Notes under the pieces: model-generated
The model's database searches: none
Told to the model about the DNA's origin: nothing
The model's input: only the letters and a program-made list of their open reading frames with translations
Position numbers and translations under genes: made by a program
NCBI GenBank assembly: GCA_030537815.1
Contig: JAUNVF010000008.1
Coordinates: 1 to 53,518 of the forward strand
Reading direction: 5' to 3'
Source of the DNA: Tissierellia bacterium
GTDB taxonomy: Bacteria > Bacillota > Clostridia > Tissierellales > Peptoniphilaceae
DNA: 53,518 nt
Part shown: piece by piece, positions 29,185 through 49,687 of the stretch
Position numbering within the stretch: position 1 is the stretch's first letter
Layout of the letters: each line of letters starts with the position of its first letter

Positions 29185-29203
29185 TTGAAATAACATAGAT
29201 TTA

Positions 29204-29231
29204 CCCCGAGAGATATCTTGGGGTTTTTTTA
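29204..29231 (+). terminator. Terminator after DUF4097 gene
   Basis: CCCCGAGA-GATA-TCTTGGGG (one G-T pair) followed by seven Ts. Confidence 0.88.
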
Positions 29232-29261: not shown

Positions 29262-29277
29262 TGTGATTTATCTCACT
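29262..29277. promoter_or_regulatory. CRP-type operator upstream of the pfl operon
   Basis: TGTGA-TTTATC-TCACT is an almost perfect match to the CRP/FNR-family palindrome TGTGA-N6-TCACA. It is centred 66 bp before the pflB start codon. Candidate -10 elements TATTAA (29296-29301) or TATATT (29304-29309) put the centre roughly 39-46 bp before transcription start, suitable for class II activation. The fused regulator encoded in the same operon is the natural candidate to bind it. Confidence 0.7.
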
Positions 29278-29335
29278 GAAATAATTGATAATAAGTATTA
29301 AAATATATTTAGATAATAAAATAGGAGGTAATAAA

Positions 29336-31579
29336 TTGAAAGCTTGGGAAGGTTTTAAAGAAGGCAATTGGTGTAGAAATATAGATACTAGAGATTTTAT
29401 AGTAAAAAACTACAAGGCTTATGACGGCGATGAAAGTTTTTTGGTCGGAAAGACAGATAGAACGGAAAAACTTTGGAATAAAGTTGAGAAGATGATAAAT
29501 GAAGAGATTAGAAATAAGAAGGTTAATATAGAGACGAGAACATTTTCCGGGATAAATAATTTTGAACCGGGATATATAGACAGGGATTTGGAAATTATAT
29601 TCGGTCTTCAAACAGATGAACCATTGAAGAGGATTATAAATCCTTATGGAGGTTATAGGATGGTTCAATCGTCATTGAAGGCTTATGGCTATGAACTCGA
29701 TCCTGTTATGGAAAAAGATTTCAATGAATTTAGAAAAACTCATAATCAAGGTGTATTTGACGCTTATACAAAGGATATGAGGAAGGCTAGGACTGTGGGA
29801 CTCTTGACCGGACTACCCGATGCTTATGGAAGGGGCAGGATAATTGGCGACTACAGGAGGATACCTCTATACGGGATAGACTTTTTGAAAGCTCAAAAGA
29901 TGTCGGATCTAGATGAGATAATAGGAGATGCCAGCGAAGAGATAATAAGATTGCGAGAAGAGGTTTCAGAGCAGATAAGGGCTTTGGACGAGATCAAGGA
30001 TATGGCGGCATCATATGGATTCGATATTTCTAAACCGGCTGAAAATGCTGTCGAAGCTGTACAGTTTTTATATTTTGGATATCTTGCAGCTATAAAAGAA
30101 AATAATGGCGCTGCTATGAGCATAGGCAGAAATACTACATTTATAGATATTTATATCGAAAGGGATATGGAGAGAGGCTTGATTGACGAAGAGGGCGCAC
30201 AGGAATTAGTCGATCAGCTTATAATAAAATTGAGGCTGGCTAGACATTTGAGAACGCCTGAATACGATGAATTATTTGGCGGGGACCCGACCTGGGTTAC
30301 CGAATCCATAGGAGGAATGGGAGTCGACGGAAGGACTATGGTAACAAAGACGGCATTTAGATATCTCCATTCTCTAACAAATCTCGGACCGGCTCCGGAA
30401 CCGAATATGACTGTGCTTTGGAGCGATAAATTGCCGATGCCATTTAAGAAATACTGTTCAAAGATGAGCATAGAAACAGGATCGATACAATATGAAAATG
30501 ACGATGTAATGAGAGCTGTTTACGGAGATGACTATGGTATAGCATGCTGCGTTTCTGCGATGAAGATAGGAAAGCAGATGCAATTCTTCGGTGCGAGAGC
30601 GAATATAGCCAAAGCATTATTATATGCGATAAATGGCGGGGTAGATGAAGTTAAAAAAGATAAAGAAGGAAATCCAATCAAAGTATTGGACGGAATTGAA
30701 GCCATAAAAGATGATGTTTTGGATTTCGATACAGTTTTAGAAAATTATAAAAAAGTTTTGAAAAAGCTATCTAAATTATATGTAAATACCATGAATACGA
30801 TTCATTATATGCACGACAAATACGCATATGAAAGGGGACAGATGGCTCTTCAAGATACTAAATTACACCGATTCATGGCTTTTGGAGTAGCGGGAATTTC
30901 TATAGTTGCAGATTCTCTATCGGCGATTAAATACGCCAAAGTAAAGCCGATTAGAGATGATTATGGAATAGCGATAGACTTTAAAGTCGAGGGAGATTTT
31001 CCCAAATACGGAAATGACGATGACAGAGCGGATGACATGGCAGTTGCTGCGGTAAGTCAATTCCTAGACTATTTAAAAGAAACAAAGACTTATAGAAATT
31101 CAGAGCATACTTTGTCGATACTGACTATAACTTCAAATGTCGTATACGGTAAAAAGACGGGAACTACTCCTGACGGAAGAAAAAGAGGAGAGCCATTTGC
31201 TCCCGGTGCAAATCCGATGCATGGCAGAGATGAAAGTGGAGCGCTCGCTTCTTTAAATTCAGTGGCAAAAATACCATATGAATGTATTTGCCAGGACGGG
31301 ATTTCAAATACTTTTACGATTGTTCCTGATACATTGGGCAAAAATAAGGAAGAGAGAATAGATAATTTGACTGCTATAATGAATGGATACTTTAATCGAA
31401 AGGCATTTCATTTAAATGTCAATGTTTTAGATAGAGCTCTTTTAAAAGAAGCTATGGAAAATCCCGAAAAATATCCGAATCTTACTATAAGGGTGTCTGG
31501 ATATGCGGTCCATTTCCACAGGCTTTCAAGAGAACAGCAATTGGAAGTTATAAATAGGACATTCCACGAAAGGACTTGA
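29336..31579 (+). CDS. pflB: Pyruvate formate-lyase
   Basis: 747 residues from TTG 29336, which has AGGAGGT at 29323-29329; longer in-frame starts have no site. It converts pyruvate and CoA to acetyl-CoA and formate by a glycyl-radical mechanism in anaerobic cells. The catalytic cysteine pair is Cys404-Cys405 in 'ACCVSAM', and the radical-bearing Gly722 lies in '[17 protein letters not shown]', near the C-terminus as expected. It is cytoplasmic. The activating enzyme follows 6 bp later. A CRP-type site lies upstream. Confidence 0.97.
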
Positions 31580-31585
31580 TATTAG

Positions 31586-33052
31586 ATGACCATGGGCAAG
31601 CTTCACTCAATACAATCTATGGGGCTTGTTGACGGCCCTGGAGTTAGAACTGTATTCTTTCTTCAGGGCTGTCCGCTTAGATGCGCCTATTGTCATAATC
31701 CCGATACTCGAGCATTCTGCAATGGTACGGATATAGATGTGGATGAGGTCCTTAGAATAGCTTCAAGATATAAATCATATTACGGATTAAATGGAGGTAT
31801 TACATTCTCGGGTGGTGAACCTCTGTCTCAACCTCGATTTGTTTTAGAGGCATTTAAAGCTTTGAAAGAAAGGGGATTCAATACCTGCCTCGATACATCA
31901 GGCTATGGACCTAAAAAATACTTTGATGAAATCTTGAAGTATACCGATACATTGCTCCTTGATATTAAATCTTTCTCTTTTGATGATTACAAGTCTTTAA
32001 CGGATTTTGGAGACGAATCAGTTAAAGAGTTTATGAATTCTGTTAAAAAGTTCAATATTAATGTTATAATAAGACATGTAATGGTACCCGGTTTTACAGA
32101 TGATAAAAGATCTATGGATAGATTTGTGAGATATATTTTTCCTATAATAGATAAGATAGATAGGGTCGAGATCCTTCCATTTCATAAAATGGGAGAGGAT
32201 AAATACGAGGAATTGAATATTGATTACAAATTAAAAGAAGTTCCGGAGATGAACAAAAAATATGCGCAGGTTTTTGAAAACTACGTGAATTACAGAATCA
32301 AAAAGCTAAGGCAAAAGAGGGCTGATAATATGAGGATGGCTATAGACGAAAATCAAAAAGATAAATGGATTGAACAGAGCTATCTGCTAAAGGGTTTGAC
32401 AGAAGAAGAGAGAAGTCGAGTGAAAAGCGGCATTGAATTCTGTGAAATGAAGAGGGGCGAGCTAATATTTCAGAGTTTAGATAATGCCGACAGGCTCTAT
32501 ATGGTCTGCAGCGGAAAAATAAAGATATACGAAAATACATTGGAAGGCAAGGAACAAATCTTATATATATATTCGGAGGGAGAATTTATAGGTGGTCTGA
32601 ATGTATTAAAAGAAACAGAGTATCTATATAATGGAGAATGTATTGAGCCGGGAGTTATCGGCATAATTTCCAAAGATGTATTCGATAATTTTCTTGTAAA
32701 TAATCCACATGTACTCTTGAGAATCCTAAAGATGGCTTTCGAAAGGATTAGACTGGCTGAAGATTTGATAAAGAGATTGACGGCATCGACGACTGATGAG
32801 AAGGTGGCATCGCTTTTACTCAAGCTGATACCTGAATTTGGTACGGTTAAGGGATCCAAGATCGTGCTCGACTTGAGCATGACTCGAGAGGAGATGGGCT
32901 CTCTTGTCGGATTGACGAGAGAAACTTTGGTTAGAAAATTAAGCGAGTATAGGAATTTAGGGATAATCGAAGCTAGCGGAACTAAGAGGATAGTCATAAA
33001 TGATATCGAAAAATTAAGGGAGAAGGCCCAAGCCTTTCCTGATGATAAATAG
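31586..33052 (+). CDS. PFL-activating radical-SAM enzyme fused to a CRP/FNR-family regulator
   Basis: 488 residues, one uninterrupted frame, about twice the usual length of PflA (about 245). Residues 1-245 are a complete PFL-activating enzyme: 'DGPGVRTVFFLQGC', radical-SAM cluster C29-x3-C33-x2-C36, 'GGITFSGGEPL' and the 'LLDIKSF' and 'RHVMVPGFTDD' segments. Residues 265-488 are a complete CRP/FNR-type protein: cyclic-nucleotide-binding-like jelly roll ('MKRGELIFQSLDNADRLYMV', 'YSEGEFIGG'), dimer helix and winged HTH (about 430-470). The recognition helix 'TRETLVRKL' keeps the Arg-Glu and Arg spacing of E. coli CRP ('SRETVGRIL'), which reads TGTGA. A TGTGA-N6-TCACT palindrome lies before the operon. 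The activation and regulation of PFL may be coupled in one protein. Confidence 0.92.
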   Translation: MTMGKLHSIQSMGLVDGPGVRTVFFLQGCPLRCAYCHNPDTRAFCNGTDIDVDEVLRIASRYKSYYGLNGGITFSGGEPLSQPRFVLEAFKALKERGFNTCLDTSGYGPKKYFDEILKYTDTLLLDIKSFSFDDYKSLTDFGDESVKEFMNSVKKFNINVIIRHVMVPGFTDDKRSMDRFVRYIFPIIDKIDRVEILPFHKMGEDKYEELNIDYKLKEVPEMNKKYAQVFENYVNYRIKKLRQKRADNMRMAIDENQKDKWIEQSYLLKGLTEEERSRVKSGIEFCEMKRGELIFQSLDNADRLYMVCSGKIKIYENTLEGKEQILYIYSEGEFIGGLNVLKETEYLYNGECIEPGVIGIISKDVFDNFLVNNPHVLLRILKMAFERIRLAEDLIKRLTASTTDEKVASLLLKLIPEFGTVKGSKIVLDLSMTREEMGSLVGLTRETLVRKLSEYRNLGIIEASGTKRIVINDIEKLREKAQAFPDDK

Positions 33053-33098
33053 TCTACAGATCTTCAACCGAAGATTTGTAGACTATTTTTTTAGAGGC
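33051..33098. terminator. Terminator between the pfl operon and the DtxR-like gene
   Basis: AGTCTACAGATCTTC pairs with GAAGATTTGTAGACT (one G-T pair) with a four-base loop, followed by a T run. It overlaps the stop region of both genes. Confidence 0.88.
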
Positions 33099-33468
33099 TC
33101 TCTTTATACGATTTAACAAATTTTTTTAAAGCTTCAAAGCTCTTGGGGCTGATGACATGCTCTATTCGGCAGGCGTCGTTGACTGCCGTTTCCTCATCTA
33201 CGCCGATCTCCATTAGCCATTGGGATATTAAGGTATGTCTTTCATAAATCATCGTAGCTATTTTATTTCCCTTTTCGGTCAAGTCTATCAGGCCGTCTTT
33301 TGCCATTGTAATATAATTATTTTGCCTTAGATTTTTCATGGCGACACTGACACTCGGTTTAGTGAATCCAAGTTCTGTTGCGATATCTATAGATCTTACC
33401 GTTCCGTTTCTCATCTTGAGTATCAATATGGTCTCCAGATAGTTCTCGGCCGATTCCATTATTTTCAT
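33091..33468 (-). CDS. DtxR/MntR-family metal-dependent regulator
   Basis: 125 residues from ATG 33468 (AAAGGAG site). An N-terminal winged HTH ('RSIDIATELGFTKPSVSVAMKNLRQNNYITM') is followed by 'LTEKGNKIATMIYERHTLISQWLMEIGVDEETAVNDACRIEHVIS', the DtxR-type metal-binding/dimerisation helix with the paired His and Glu residues. The length fits the short MntR-like form without a C-terminal SH3 domain. Mn2+ or Fe2+ is the likely co-repressor. The adjacent metal genes (DUF6110/P1B ATPase on the other strand) and the Mn riboswitch ATPase suggest local metal regulation. Its operator was not identified with confidence. Confidence 0.9.
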   Translation of the reverse strand: MKIMESAENYLETILILKMRNGTVRSIDIATELGFTKPSVSVAMKNLRQNNYITMAKDGLIDLTEKGNKIATMIYERHTLISQWLMEIGVDEETAVNDACRIEHVISPKSFEALKKFVKSYKESL

Positions 33469-33823
33469 AATTTCGCTCCTTTCTTTTAAAATCGAATAAG
33501 ATATCATATCTTTAATATATTATCTCAAATGAAAATGATTTAATCAAATCTGATCTGTAGATGATATTAAGGCATAAATATACAAGATATCATAGCGAAA
33601 TAAAGTGGGAAAAGATTAAGATAAAATGTAATTGATAATGAGAAAATAAAATATTACAAAATATTAATATTTAAATGTGTACTTATACACATCTAAAAAA
33701 TTATAAGCAAAAAACTATATAAAAAGCTTATCTTAATTGATAATATATAGTATAATATAACTAGTCTAAATATTCATTACATTATGGATTTTCTTAGAAT
33801 AAATAAAATTAATGGAGGTTATT
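33469..33823. other. Intergenic control region between the DtxR-like and DUF6110 genes
   Basis: About 355 bp without a convincing gene, very AT-rich. It holds an ATGTGTA-CTTA-TACACAT palindrome at 33675-33692, and a TATAAT at 33751-33756 about 70 bp before the DUF6110 start. The palindrome is the most operator-like element seen; the binding protein is unknown. Confidence 0.5.
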
Positions 33824-34129
33824 ATGTTAGGATTAAAAAAATTGGGAATTTTCACAGGTGGACTATTATTCGGTACTGTTGGATTAAAAGTATTGGCAAG
33901 CGATGACGCTAAAAAAGTCTATACTACAGGTGTGGCTGCTGCTTTGAGAGCTAAGGACAGCTTTATGAAGACTGCTACAGTAGTTCAAGAAAATGCTGAA
34001 GATATCATTGCTGAAGCTAAACTGATCAATGAAGAAAAAGCAAAAGAAGAAGATTTCGTATGGGAGTTTGAAGAAGACTGCGAAGATTGCACTTATTCTG
34101 AAGAATCTTCCGACGAGGAGGCTGAATAG
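33824..34129 (+). CDS. DUF6110 protein
   Basis: 101 residues from ATG 33824 (GGAGGT site). The N-terminus is weakly hydrophobic with glycine-rich 'TGGLLFGTVGLKVLASDDAKKVY', followed by 'AALRAKDSFMKTATVVQENAEDIIAEAK', the DUF6110 signature, and a very acidic tail with two cysteines (CEDC). DUF6110 proteins are commonly encoded just before P1B-type metal ATPases, as here (47 bp). The acidic, cysteine-containing tail could bind metal; this is inference. Confidence 0.85.
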   Translation: MLGLKKLGIFTGGLLFGTVGLKVLASDDAKKVYTTGVAAALRAKDSFMKTATVVQENAEDIIAEAKLINEEKAKEEDFVWEFEEDCEDCTYSEESSDEEAE

Positions 34130-34176
34130 TAGGGACTTTTTAAAGTCCCTTTGGCATTTATCGATGGAGGTTGAGT

Positions 34177-36258
34177 TTGAAGTATCATGTTAAACATTAT
34201 ATAAAAGGAAGAATAAGATTAAGTCTTAATCTGCCGCCTTTAGATGAAAGACAGGCAGATACGATTAAATACTATATGTTGAAATCTGATGGAATAATAT
34301 CGGTAAAAGTCTATCAGAGGACGGCTTCTATCGCTATCGAGTATAGCGGCAATACAAAAAATATTTTAAAAATAGTCGAAGAATTCAACTTAAATAATGT
34401 CGAAGTCCCCGATAGGATGATAGAAAATACCGGGACGGCTCTCGACAATAAGTACAAGGAAAAATTATTAACACTGGTTGCTGTCAGATTTATTATGAAA
34501 TCTATAATGCCTCCTGTGGTTGGTATGGCTTATGGAATTATAAGATCGATAAAATATATAAAAGAGGCTGCCAAGTCTTTAAGCAAGGCAAAGCTAGATG
34601 TAAATGTACTCGATGCTACAGCGATAACCGTATCTATGGCTAGAGGCGATTTTGCAACTGCCGGATCAATCATGTTCTTATTAACTGTGGGAGAAATCCT
34701 CGAAGAATGGACTCATAAAAAGACCATAGGCGATCTTGCAAGAACCATGTCTCTTAATATCGGTCAGGTCTGGAAGCAGGATGGCGACGCTAGGGTTTTA
34801 GTAGATGGATCTGGAATAAAAGTTTCCGACAATATCGTAGTTCAGATGGGAAATGTCGTTCCATTTGACGGAAATATAGTCGAAGGCGAAGCGATGATGA
34901 ATCTAGTTTCTTTGACGGGCGAATCTAAACCGGTTTACAAATCGGTGGACAGCTATGTATATGCCGGAACTGTCGTCGAAGAAGGCGAGATAGTAGTCGA
35001 AGTAAAAGAGCTTAGCGGAACGACGAGATATGACAGGATTATAAAGCTGATCGAAGAGTCGGAAAAACTAAAGTCGAATGTAGAAAATAGGGCCGAGGTT
35101 CTTGCGAACAATCTCGTTCCATATACATTTATGGGAACCGGTTTGGTATATTTACTGACCGGTAATGCCATGAAAGCTCTGAGCGTATTATTGGTCGATT
35201 TTTCTTGCGCATTAAAACTCGCCATGCCGATAACTGTTTTATCTGCTATGAGAGAGGCGAGAGAAAATAATATAAATGTAAAGGGCGGTAAATATCTTGA
35301 GAGCATGGCCGAGGCGGATATAATTGTATTTGATAAGACCGGAACTCTTACCAAAGCGACTCCCGAGGTCGTCGATATAATTAATTTCGGACCGGGAGAT
35401 CTGACGGAAAAGATTAGAGTAGCGGCTTGTCTTGAAGAGCATTTTCCTCATTCTATGGCGAGAGCTGTGGTCGAAGAAGCGGCGAGAAGAGAGATCTATC
35501 ACGATGAGATGCATTCCAAGGTCGAATATATAGTCGCTCATGGAGTGGTTTCATATGTAGATGGTAAGAAGGTCATGATAGGAAGTGAGCATTTTATTTT
35601 CAATGATGAAAAATGTAGTGTTCACGAGGAGTATCAAAAGGCCTTTGACGAATTGCCCGAAGAGTATTCTCATCTTTTCTTTGCAGTTAAAGATAAACTA
35701 GAGGCGGTCATATTGATTGAAGATCCCCTTAGAGATGAAGCTGTAGATATGATGAGAGATTTAAAGGAATTGGGAATCAAAAAGACTGTCATGATGACGG
35801 GTGATAATAAGAGGATTGCATCTTCAATTGCTAAGAAAGTCGGCATAGATAAATATTATTCCGAGGTTTTGCCGGAAAATAAGGCTGAATATGTAGAAGC
35901 TCAAAAAGAGAATGGAAGTATTATAGCCATGATCGGCGATGGGGTAAATGACGCACCGGCATTGGCGGCATCAGATGTCGGAATTGCTATGAGCAGAGGT
36001 GCTGAGCTTGCGAGGGAGATTTCTGATGTTAATATACTCAAAGACGATTTGAGTTTGCTACCAAAGTACAGAGAGCTTAGCATGGGTATGATGAAGAGAA
36101 TTGACTACAATTATAAGAGCATAATCGGAATAAATATGTTCTTGATACTGCTCGGCGTAGGCGGCTTGATTCAACCGATGACTTCCGCTATAATTCACAA
36201 TGCTTCAACTTTAGGAATAGGATTATACAGCACTAAAAATATATTAAAAGATAGATAA
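34177..36258 (+). CDS. P1B-type heavy-metal ATPase with SCALK motif
   Basis: 693 residues. TTG 34177 is chosen because GGAGG at 34166-34170 is 6 bases upstream; a TTG at 34171 touches the site. An N-terminal ferredoxin-like region (1-75) has no CxxC metal motif. The actuator 'SLTGESKPV', phosphorylation site 'FDKTGTLT' and hinge 'MIGDGVNDAPALAASDVGIAMSRG' are intact. The signature CPx/CPC of helix 6 is replaced by 'SCALKLAMP' (Cys344), seen in a subgroup of clostridial P1B pumps. This argues against Cu/Zn classes; Mn, Fe or another metal is possible. It follows DUF6110. Confidence 0.9.
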   Translation: MKYHVKHYIKGRIRLSLNLPPLDERQADTIKYYMLKSDGIISVKVYQRTASIAIEYSGNTKNILKIVEEFNLNNVEVPDRMIENTGTALDNKYKEKLLTLVAVRFIMKSIMPPVVGMAYGIIRSIKYIKEAAKSLSKAKLDVNVLDATAITVSMARGDFATAGSIMFLLTVGEILEEWTHKKTIGDLARTMSLNIGQVWKQDGDARVLVDGSGIKVSDNIVVQMGNVVPFDGNIVEGEAMMNLVSLTGESKPVYKSVDSYVYAGTVVEEGEIVVEVKELSGTTRYDRIIKLIEESEKLKSNVENRAEVLANNLVPYTFMGTGLVYLLTGNAMKALSVLLVDFSCALKLAMPITVLSAMREARENNINVKGGKYLESMAEADIIVFDKTGTLTKATPEVVDIINFGPGDLTEKIRVAACLEEHFPHSMARAVVEEAARREIYHDEMHSKVEYIVAHGVVSYVDGKKVMIGSEHFIFNDEKCSVHEEYQKAFDELPEEYSHLFFAVKDKLEAVILIEDPLRDEAVDMMRDLKELGIKKTVMMTGDNKRIASSIAKKVGIDKYYSEVLPENKAEYVEAQKENGSIIAMIGDGVNDAPALAASDVGIAMSRGAELAREISDVNILKDDLSLLPKYRELSMGMMKRIDYNYKSIIGINMFLILLGVGGLIQPMTSAIIHNASTLGIGLYSTKNILKDR

Positions 36259-45385: not shown

Positions 45386-46690
45386 ATGGCAGATAAGAAA
45401 ATAATCTACTATATCAATCAGTTCTTCGGCCAGGTAGGTGGAGAAGAAATGGCTCACGTCGCTCCCGAATATAAAGAAGGAGTAATTGGCCCTTCAATGG
45501 GTTTTGAGAATGAACTGAAAGATAATGCTAAAGTTTTTGGAACCATAATATGTGGAGACAACTACTTTAATGAAAATAAAGAAGAAGCGGTTAAATTTTT
45601 AGAAGAAATAAATGAAAAATATAAGCCGGATTTAGTTGTAGCCGGACCTGCATTTAATGCGGGAAGATACGGTATGGCTTGTGCGGGCGTAGCTGAGTAT
45701 TTTGATTCAGTTGGAGTTCCCGTAATCACAGGAATGTATGAAGAGAATCCCGGAGTTGATTTATCGAGAGAGCATGCATATGTAGTTCCAACTGGAAATG
45801 CTGCTACTGCGATGAGAAAAGCTCTACCTGTTATGGCTGCTATCGCGATTAAATTATTAAATGGCGAGCAAGTTAAGCCTAAAGAGGACGGATATTTCGC
45901 ACAAGGCAAGAGACTTACCGTATTCTCTGATAAAAGAGGCTCTGAAAGAGCTGTCGAAATGCTTCTCAAGAGACTTAGAGGAGAAGAATTTGAGACAGAG
46001 CTTCCAATGCCTGAATTCGATTCAGTAGAACCAGCTCCTGCTATTAAGGATTTATCGAAAGCTACTATCGCTCTTGTAACTTCAGGAGGAATAGTGCCTA
46101 ATGGAAATCCCGATAGAATTCAATCTGCTTCAGCACAGATGTGGGGTAAATACGATGTTGATGGAATAGATCAACTTAAAGGCGAATACTGCACTATACA
46201 TGGTGGATATGACCCGGTATATGCAAATGAAGTGCCTGACAGAGTAGCCCCATTAGATGAGCTAAAGAGATTAGAAAAAGAGGGAGTAATTGGTAAAGTT
46301 TATAAATACTTCTATACTACTACAGGAACCGGAACTTCAGTTGAAAATTCTGAAAAATTCGGTACAGAAATAGGAAAAGAGCTTAAAGATGCTGGCGTTG
46401 ACGGTGTTCTTTTAACTTCGACCTGAGGTACTTGTACACGTTGCGGTGCAACGATGGTTAAAGAAATTGAAAGATACGGCATTCCGATAGTGCATCTAGC
46501 TACAATCACTACTATTTCCGAATCTGTAGGTGCAAATAGAATAGTCCCTACAATTGCAATACCATATCCTGTTGGTAATCCTACACTTAATGAAGAAGAT
46601 GAAAAAGCTTTAAGAGATGAAATGGTTGAAAGAGCAGTACAAGCTCTTGCGACCGAAGTAAGCGAACCAACTCAATTTAAGAAGAAGTAA
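45386..46690 (+). CDS. Selenocysteine-containing component B subunit (GrdB/GrdF/GrdH type)
   Basis: 434 residues across an in-frame TGA at 46424-46426, read as selenocysteine 347. The motif around it is T-S-T-Sec-G-T-C-T-R-C-G-A, identical in layout to known GrdB selenoproteins. The selenol attacks the Schiff-base substrate, passing a carboxymethyl-selenoether to component A. N-terminal landmarks are 'YYINQFFGQVGGEE' and 'AGPAFNAGRYG'. A 6-bp hairpin 12 nt after the TGA fits a bacterial SECIS. Conventional gene callers would split this gene at the TGA into a 346-residue piece and a 78-residue tail. The substrate (glycine, sarcosine or betaine) is uncertain. AGGAGA before the ATG. Confidence 0.95.
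46424..46453 (+). promoter_or_regulatory. Candidate bacterial SECIS element
   Basis: The UGA codon at 46424-46426 is followed after 12 nt by CGTTGC-GGT-GCAACG (46439-46453), a perfect 6-bp stem with a GGT loop. Bacterial SECIS hairpins directly downstream of UGA have this placement and often carry a loop G, recognised by SelB. Confidence 0.8.
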
Positions 46691-48901: not shown

Positions 48902-49687
48902 ATGGATATATTAAAAAGAAGTATTGCGCCTATTAGCGAAGAGGCTTGGGATGAAATTGATGAATCTGCCATAGATGTAATAAAAGCTATTTTATCAGCT
49001 AGAAAAACTTTAAAGGTGAATGGACCTATGGGATGGGATTATAATGCTGTTCCGGAAGGAAGGCTTGAGATAATAGATGATGGCGATGTAGCTGTTGGAC
49101 AGTATAAATTAAAGAGACTAGTTGAGCCAAGAGTTACATTTGAGCTAAATAAATGGGAACTCGACAATGTCGAGAGAGGAGCAGAGGATATAGATTTAGA
49201 TCCCCTAGAAGAAGCTGTTGAAAAGATAGCTTTATTCGAAGAAAATTTGATATATAATGGATACGAAGCCGGCGGTATAGTTGGGCTAAGCGAGGCAGCT
49301 GAACACCAGATGGAATTCGGTAAAGAAGCGAATACGATATTAAAAAATATAGGCGAAGCGAAATTCAAATTATATAATAGCTATGTTCAACCGCCATATA
49401 ATTTGATGGTTTCTCCCGAAGCTTATGAGAAAATCAATAAGATATATGAAGGCGCAAATCTCATGAAGCAGATAGAGAAATTGATTGAAGGTTCGGTAAT
49501 CAGATCAAAAGCAGTAAAAGGTGCAATCCTAGTACCTCATAGAGATGATGATTTAGAATTGACGATAGGACAGGATTTTTCCATCGGTTACGACTCTCAT
49601 GATGAGGAGACGATTACTATGTTTGTAACGGAATCTTTGACATTTAGAGTTTTAGATGAAGCTAAGATAGTTAATTTTAAATTGTAA
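48902..49687 (+). CDS. Family 1 encapsulin shell protein
   Basis: 261 residues with the HK97-fold encapsulin landmarks: 'MDILKRSIAPISEEAWDEID', 'VNGPMGWDYNAVPEGRL', 'LKRLVEPRVTFELNKWEL', the 'DLDPLEEAVEKIALFEENLIYNG' helix and the C-terminal 'ESLTFRVLDEAKIV'. The shell self-assembles into a protein nanocompartment that takes up cargo through peptides such as the LGIGEL on the preceding protein. The system likely stores iron or protects against oxidative stress. GGAGGT precedes the ATG. A terminator at 49695 ends the two-gene operon. Confidence 0.96.
   Translation: MDILKRSIAPISEEAWDEIDESAIDVIKAILSARKTLKVNGPMGWDYNAVPEGRLEIIDDGDVAVGQYKLKRLVEPRVTFELNKWELDNVERGAEDIDLDPLEEAVEKIALFEENLIYNGYEAGGIVGLSEAAEHQMEFGKEANTILKNIGEAKFKLYNSYVQPPYNLMVSPEAYEKINKIYEGANLMKQIEKLIEGSVIRSKAVKGAILVPHRDDDLELTIGQDFSIGYDSHDEETITMFVTESLTFRVLDEAKIVNFKL

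Follow-up and report, generated by a model that had tools for sequence, protein, structure and literature searches.

Pyruvate formate-lyase (PFL) is central in anaerobic metabolism, and its radical is destroyed by oxygen. To our knowledge there is no account, in these anaerobes, of how the synthesis of PFL is matched to the capacity for activating it. This question is raised by a gene of a Tissierellia bacterium (GenBank assembly GCA_030537815.1, contig JAUNVF010000008.1) in which a PFL-activating enzyme (PFL-AE, PflA) and a CRP/FNR-type regulator are read as one protein. Does a single polypeptide both activate PFL and regulate pfl transcription, as the original prediction had proposed from the letters of the sequence? 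The stretch of DNA analysed, called the window here, comprised 53,518 nucleotides (positions 1 to 53,518 of the forward strand), and all features of the operon described below lie on its plus strand. The answer that we favour, with a probability of about 0.7, is that the protein is bifunctional: it would activate PFL and, as a CRP/FNR-type class II activator, would turn on its own pflB-pflA-crp operon. That the state of the PFL-AE domain gates DNA binding is proposed at somewhat less than even odds.

Identification of a pflA-crp fusion gene behind pflB

The gene (31586..33052) was a single open frame of 488 aa, with no internal stops in its ORF translation. Pfam placed Radical_SAM (residues 25–174) and Fer4_12 (15–123) in its first half, and cNMP_binding (PF00027, 287–372), HTH_Crp_2 (PF13545, 405–479) and Crp (PF00325, 430–461) in its second half, all above the gathering scores. 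The N-terminal half scored 250.3 bits against the NCBIfam model TIGR02493 (PFLA) over residues 6–231 (equivalog cut-off 231.75), and the solved PFL-AE 3c8f, which we take to be the E. coli enzyme, aligned with residues 3–225 (E 4.6e-48). Solved chains of the CRP/FNR family aligned with residues about 262–482. By profiles and alignment, the PFL-AE domain extended to about residue 240 (31586..32305) and held the [4Fe-4S] ligands C29, C33 and C36; a linker of about residues 236–266 (32291..32383) was measured in 22 of the 26 fused genes described below; the regulator body began at about residue 262, with the sensor fold (287–372) and the winged helix-turn-helix (405–479) at 32444..33022. The open frame, the Pfam domains, the TIGR02493 score and the catalytic residues bear out the claim that one 488-residue frame carries a complete PFL-AE and a complete CRP/FNR-type regulator, and the alignment placed the three cluster cysteines as predicted.

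The fusion gene started 6 nt after the stop codon of pflB (29336..31579), the product of which scored 1191.5 bits against TIGR01255 (cut-off 994.2). The TTG start of pflB was picked from its ribosome-binding site, AGGAGGT, found by eye at 29323..29329; the listed ORF opens at 29285. A stem search detected a terminator-like stem of 9 pairs followed by a T-tract (29203..29224), which closes the upstream unit, and a terminator at 33050..33092 comprised a computed 16-nt inverted repeat over the stop codon of the fusion gene and a T-tract seen by eye. NCBIfam GrcA-type models also matched the glycyl-radical domain of this pflB. In 17 of 126 loci with a glycyl-radical domain (L128, L129, L139, L145, L084, L091 and others), PFL was split, its glycyl-radical end being a separate frame of 81–111 aa downstream of pflB; L050, in which the pflB frame is interrupted, was left out of this count.

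Elsewhere in the window, a TIGR01918 frame (glycine/betaine/sarcosine reductase selenoprotein B family, 45386–46426) ended at a UGA with an Rfam SECIS_4 element directly after it (46427–46464) and, when the UGA was read as selenocysteine, continued through a CxxC motif. A Family 1 encapsulin shell protein was encoded at 48902–49687.

Conservation of the enzyme half

In the alignment, the PFL-AE half of the window protein contained CxxxCxxC, together with D16, H37, N38, GGE, D103, D126, K128, R163 and H200, residues whose roles in PFL-AE we take as given. Over 26 fused rows these residues were invariant, except for E78, replaced by D in one row, and for one contig-end row ending before residue 36. 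For seven pairs of fused genes, dN/dS (pN/pS where synonymous sites were saturated) was 0.05–0.22 in the PflA half, 0.03–0.17 in the regulator half and 0.07–0.64 in the linker. Selection on the PflA half is purifying.

No frame but the fusion gave a strong PFL-AE match in the draft genome of the window (84.6% complete, 68 contigs). Of three further, weak matches, one was a CRP-like frame (29%) and the others were radical-SAM frames (22% and 29% identity). Two glycyl-radical domains were detected in the draft genome, one in the PFL of the window and the other in a 720-residue frame adjoining the shorter of these radical-SAM frames; by position and size only, we take this pair for an anaerobic ribonucleotide reductase and its activase.

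Distribution and history of the fused form

After removal of 5 duplicate loci, the distinct loci comprised at least 26 with a fused gene (the window included), at least 28 with pflA and a regulator gene side by side, at least 78 with PflA only and at least 8 with the regulator only; these counts are lower bounds because few candidates were scored per genome and the E-values were strict. In the family of the window, the fused form was present in at least 9 of the 130 genomes examined (frames checked), and the frames checked in a gene-order search of 249 genomes, including these 130, brought no addition to the fused set. An even sample of the class (391 genomes) contained the fused G272. In an even sample of the phylum (398 genomes) five were fused, two of them contigs already known from a scan of named genome contigs, in which the best 80 of 566 loci were kept. 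The named contigs with fused genes were assigned to uncultured or metagenome-assembled Bacillota, Firmicutes, Clostridia, Clostridiales, Clostridiaceae and Christensenellaceae.

Close relatives of the window gene did not always encode two separate proteins: the nearest ones found, G075 (75% identity) and G086 (63%), were both fused, and others were fused at ~40–48%. Two genomes, G226 and G227, had appeared to carry further fusions as "open frames" of 535 and 525, and were rejected when stops between the genes were found in the re-derived frames. Read-through or recoding at such intergenic stops was also considered and is not favoured; relatives with stops were read as ordinary separate genes since many have a ribosome-binding site and a start codon after the stop. 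No good start codon was found after the stop for several of the cysteine-bearing side-by-side regulators described below.

Trees were built from the regulator alone (62 rows) and from both domains together (54 rows). The window, G075 and G086 formed one starred group, hereafter the window group; the 23 other fused genes formed another, which also took in the side-by-side gene L050; the other side-by-side genes made up a third group (14, from outside the family of the window) and a fourth (13, from within it). The long rows L036, L050 and L180 make fine placement unsure. A single fused clade was rejected by the AU test (p 0.006) if L050 had never been fused, but not (p 0.54) if L050 is a later split. 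The fused form may thus have had either two origins, or one followed by a later split in L050.

Features of the regulator half

The regulator half of the window protein contained a recognition helix, RETLVRKL, from residue 445 and two cysteines, C308 and C352. In the aligned rows shown, this helix had the CRP-like pattern RExxxRK, for which we assume the residue-to-base contacts of CRP. The GEL...PRTSS sequence of 4cyd, presumably GlxR, aligned to GGL...EYLYN in the window, so that the residues which we take to contact cAMP in 4cyd were not kept. Sensing of cAMP by the fusion is therefore disfavoured.

An N-terminal cysteine cluster (three or more Cys in that region) was present in 14 of the 28 side-by-side regulators (L034, L035, L048, L051, L168, L169, L172–L176, L180, L186 and L187) and in none of the 26 fused ones. 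All 14 also had a beta-roll Cys at +29, a place other than that of the central Cys of E. coli FNR, and the remaining 14 had neither feature. Among the fused genes the +29 Cys was kept in six, namely all three of the window group (C308 in the window), L041, L044 and L179; we read it as a probable remnant of an FNR-like cluster regulator. The cysteine arm was absent as well from the unfused side-by-side genes in the family of the window and from all 8 lone regulators. Since the arm is missing also without fusion, its loss is not peculiar to fused genes and does not in itself prove replacement by PflA. In E. coli FNR, four essential cysteines bind a [4Fe-4S] cluster (PMC4505428), and by analogy we infer that the cysteines of the 14 side-by-side regulators would bind a cluster too.

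A conserved putative CRP-like operator before pflB

A predicted CRP-like operator, TGTGATTTATCTCACT, was located at 29262..29277 (centre 29269.5). It agreed with the consensus at 9 of 10 positions and was conserved before pflB in fused and side-by-side relatives. The consensus was a palindrome, WGTGA-N6-TCACW, which fits the RExxxR recognition helix of the regulator. A -10 hexamer, TAAAAT (29299..29304), followed 21 nt after the operator, at the same offset as in relatives; transcription would start at about 29311, so the operator would be centred at about -41.5. With the -10 hexamer lying 21 nt behind it, the site would fall near the position given for class II activation, -41.5 (PMC5957442).

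The 220 nt before pflB were scanned in all loci with a usable upstream region (22 of the 26 fused and 69 of the 78 PflA-only loci) at a threshold of 8 or more of 10 positions. Such a site was present in 20/22 fused, 28/28 side-by-side and 26/69 PflA-only loci, the last having no adjacent regulator, compared with 6.7–7.4% of 220-nt windows drawn at random from these loci; at 9 or more positions the numbers were 16, 24 and 14, and 0.2–0.6% of the random windows. The two fused loci without a site in these 220 nt were L044 and L120. In 16/20 fused and 25/28 side-by-side loci the hexamer exactly 21 nt after the site agreed with TATAAT at 5 or 6 positions, as it did in 12/14 PflA-only loci, counted only among those with a site at 9 or more positions. 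The site combined with a -10 hexamer (4 or more of 6) at +21 was found in 20/22, 27/28 and 16/69 loci (fused, side-by-side and PflA-only), compared with 0/394, 5/511 and 6/1241 random windows, figures to be read with an offset derived from the same loci on which it was counted and with related loci that are not independent.

Across the whole window, operator-type matches at up to 2 mismatches showed no excess (15, compared with 17.2 expected), so the case for the operator rests on its position and conservation. Over eight chosen genomes the site-plus-minus-10 pattern occurred 22 times, compared with 12 for a reversed control (about twofold), indicating that the pattern by itself is not specific. 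Each of these eight genomes had one such match at the pfl operon; in the draft genome of the window there were three, one before pflB and two within coding frames. The strongest indication that the regulator's own gene is served by the site along with the enzyme gene came from G086, in which pflB (86% identical to that of the window) and the fusion gene are 104 kb apart and a site stands before each. In the genus g34, the regulator gene was apart from pflA in 6/6 genomes, and a site (9 or 10 of 10) was present in 5/5 upstream regions fetched. As the side-by-side loci share the site and its spacing, regulators of this subfamily appear to control pfl from a separate gene also; with g34, these loci indicate that the regulation does not depend on fusion.

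An FNR-type site, TTGAT-N4-ATCAA, was considered as well and rejected: allowing up to 1 mismatch, the window had two matches to it (7.6 expected), in neither case near pfl. Downstream of the operon, a perfect palindrome, TGTGTACTTATACACA, its bases outside the centre compared by eye, was noted at 33676–33691, between a gene for a DtxR-like repressor (33091–33507, minus strand) on one side and 33812–34129 and a P-type ATPase gene (34171–36258) on the other. It is possibly the operator of another regulator.

One locus of a Clostridiaceae MAG, L049 (3065–4102), counted among the PflA-only loci throughout, encoded PflA followed in frame by ~100 residues resembling the C-terminal part of the fused regulators (with L052, 39% over 86 residues, E 1e-13). 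The cNMP fold was absent, RET of the recognition helix was lost with most of its motif, and the Pfam Crp helix was below the cut-off (0.007 for the tail alone). Upstream of its pflB a site at 8/10 was found, with TAATCT at +21. Judged from this single MAG, L049 may be a decaying regulator, or one with PflA alone left as its upper domain, and it may be an instance of how the regulation can be lost.

Linker, internal start and alternative readings

The linker was 30–31 aa long in the window group and 40–47 aa in the 19 other fused genes measured, with three of them at 57–72 aa. It could simply join two proteins that work as if apart: neighbouring genes would have lost a stop codon, and linkage would fix the ratio of the halves with no signal passing between them. 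This is consistent with relatives in which the two genes are adjacent, sometimes in frame, with one or two stops between them, with an operator identical in fused and unfused loci, and with a linker that was the least constrained of the three parts (highest dN/dS or pN/pS) in 5/7 pairs; in the other 2/7 pairs, however, it was slightly more constrained than the PflA half. The fused form has moreover been retained across wide divergence in both of its groups, L050 being the one apparent split, and the uniform lack of the FNR-like cysteine arm in fused genes, as well as the lack of an ATG or GTG at the junction of 7/26 of them, argues against halves that merely travel together. Such a joining of convenience and a gating of DNA binding by the PFL-AE state stand at about equal odds, each somewhat short of an even chance, and the evidence does not choose between them.

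We consider it unlikely that regulation falls to a second product of the same frame, a free Crp protein made from M249 beside the full-length PflA-Crp. By sequence, the in-frame ATG of M249 (32330..32332) is preceded by a ribosome-binding-like site, GAGGG, and could be such a start; a corresponding ATG with a site of this kind was alignable by eye in all three window-group genes, and strong internal sites were present in L036, L041, L044, L116 and L117. Pairing at these sites was stronger than in synonymous shuffles in L036, L116 and L117 (p 0.005–0.012), but not in the window group (p 0.20, 0.25 and 0.15; 0.20 for the window) nor in L041 and L044 (p 0.19 and 0.20). The seven junctions without ATG or GTG (TTG not counted) also speak against this reading, and 40/256 other internal ATGs of the fused genes had pairing of -6 kcal/mol or better. 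A free regulator from an internal start is thus possible in some lineages and not general. It is very improbable that the PflA half has ceased to activate PFL and is kept as a sensor only: nothing beyond the fusion itself suggests it, and against it stand the retention of C29, C33, C36 and the aligned residues from H37 to H200 in the fused set, the purifying selection, and a genome with no other strong PFL-AE match. An artefact of assembly or sequencing, for which the draft state of the genome in 68 contigs might speak, and which the original prediction had named as a possible source of the fusion, can practically be dismissed in view of the independent fused homologues, two of them in single-contig genomes (G086 and G272).

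Discussion

The favoured reading, a bifunctional protein, draws on the computed features of these loci: the fusion and its conservation, the catalytic residues, the operator and its spacing, and the association of the operator with one regulator subfamily. The N-terminal half would be a working PFL-AE, a radical SAM enzyme with one [4Fe-4S] cluster, which puts the glycyl radical on the product of pflB, the gene immediately before it. The C-terminal half would be a CRP/FNR-family activator binding to sites that resemble TGTGA-N6-TCACA. By binding at 29262–29277, centred at about -41.5, the fusion would activate, rather than repress, the pflB-pflA-crp operon in class II manner; since this operon is its own, it would control its own synthesis in the cell. 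The proposal that one protein activates PFL and regulates pfl transcription thereby gains strong indirect support from the intact PFL-AE residues, the sole strong PFL-AE match in the draft genome and the conserved site at the predicted class II spacing. The original prediction went further and proposed that the radical status of the enzyme or oxidation of the cluster may alter DNA binding, a hypothesis taken up below.

The protein most likely descended from a separate FNR-like regulator encoded beside pflA, with an oxygen-sensitive cluster in an N-terminal cysteine arm. In the fused forms this arm would have gone and the PFL-AE domain would occupy its place, so that the redox- or oxygen-sensitive state of the domain (its cluster, SAM or bound PFL) would be the most likely gate of DNA binding. 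Tentatively, and at less than even odds, an FNR-type regulator may have exchanged its Fe-S sensor arm for a radical-SAM enzyme, perhaps on two occasions; the [4Fe-4S] cluster used in forming the PFL radical would then also be an oxygen or redox sensor for transcription, and PFL awaiting activation might compete with DNA binding or favour it. If this is true, the cell senses at the promoter itself how far its glycyl radical enzyme has been activated. A dual-function protein would be a direct link between the synthesis of PFL and the capacity for its activation, and a naturally occurring example in which an Fe-S enzyme has taken over from an Fe-S sensor. From the conserved operator and its fixed spacing, control of pfl is predicted in many uncultured Bacillota.

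The fusion resembles several known systems in part. With the CRP/FNR family (FNR, GlxR and CRP) it shares the cNMP-binding fold, the Crp winged helix, the CRP-like recognition helix and operator and the predicted class II spacing, but the presumed cAMP contacts are not conserved, the FNR cysteine arm is absent and an enzyme holds the N-terminal position. With PflA of the E. coli type (TIGR02493; 3c8f) it shares the whole domain, the cluster cysteines, the GGE motif and the aligned residues, but the 3c8f enzyme stands alone at 245 aa, whereas in the fusion a complete transcription factor follows the PFL-AE domain. The separate crp/fnr genes directly behind pflA (L034, L048, L121, L174 and others, 28 in all) agree with it in operon order, operator and spacing; they encode two proteins, of which the regulator has an FNR-like cysteine cluster in 14/28, whereas the fusion is one protein.

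Among the papers found by searching open-access full text, none described a PFL-AE/CRP fusion in its title or the opening of its abstract. PutA and BirA, bifunctional enzyme-regulators or trigger enzymes, are described as repressors of their own operons (PMC6978683). As proposed for the fusion, each is an enzyme with a direct action on the operon of its pathway. By that account both are repressors, whereas the fusion has a DNA-binding part of the CRP/FNR type and the predicted spacing of an activator, and its enzyme is a radical-SAM protein that activates a glycyl radical enzyme. Each component is already known, be it PFL-AE, the CRP/FNR regulators or the joining of enzyme and regulator in one protein; as far as the search extended, their combination in a PFL-AE/CRP fusion is new.
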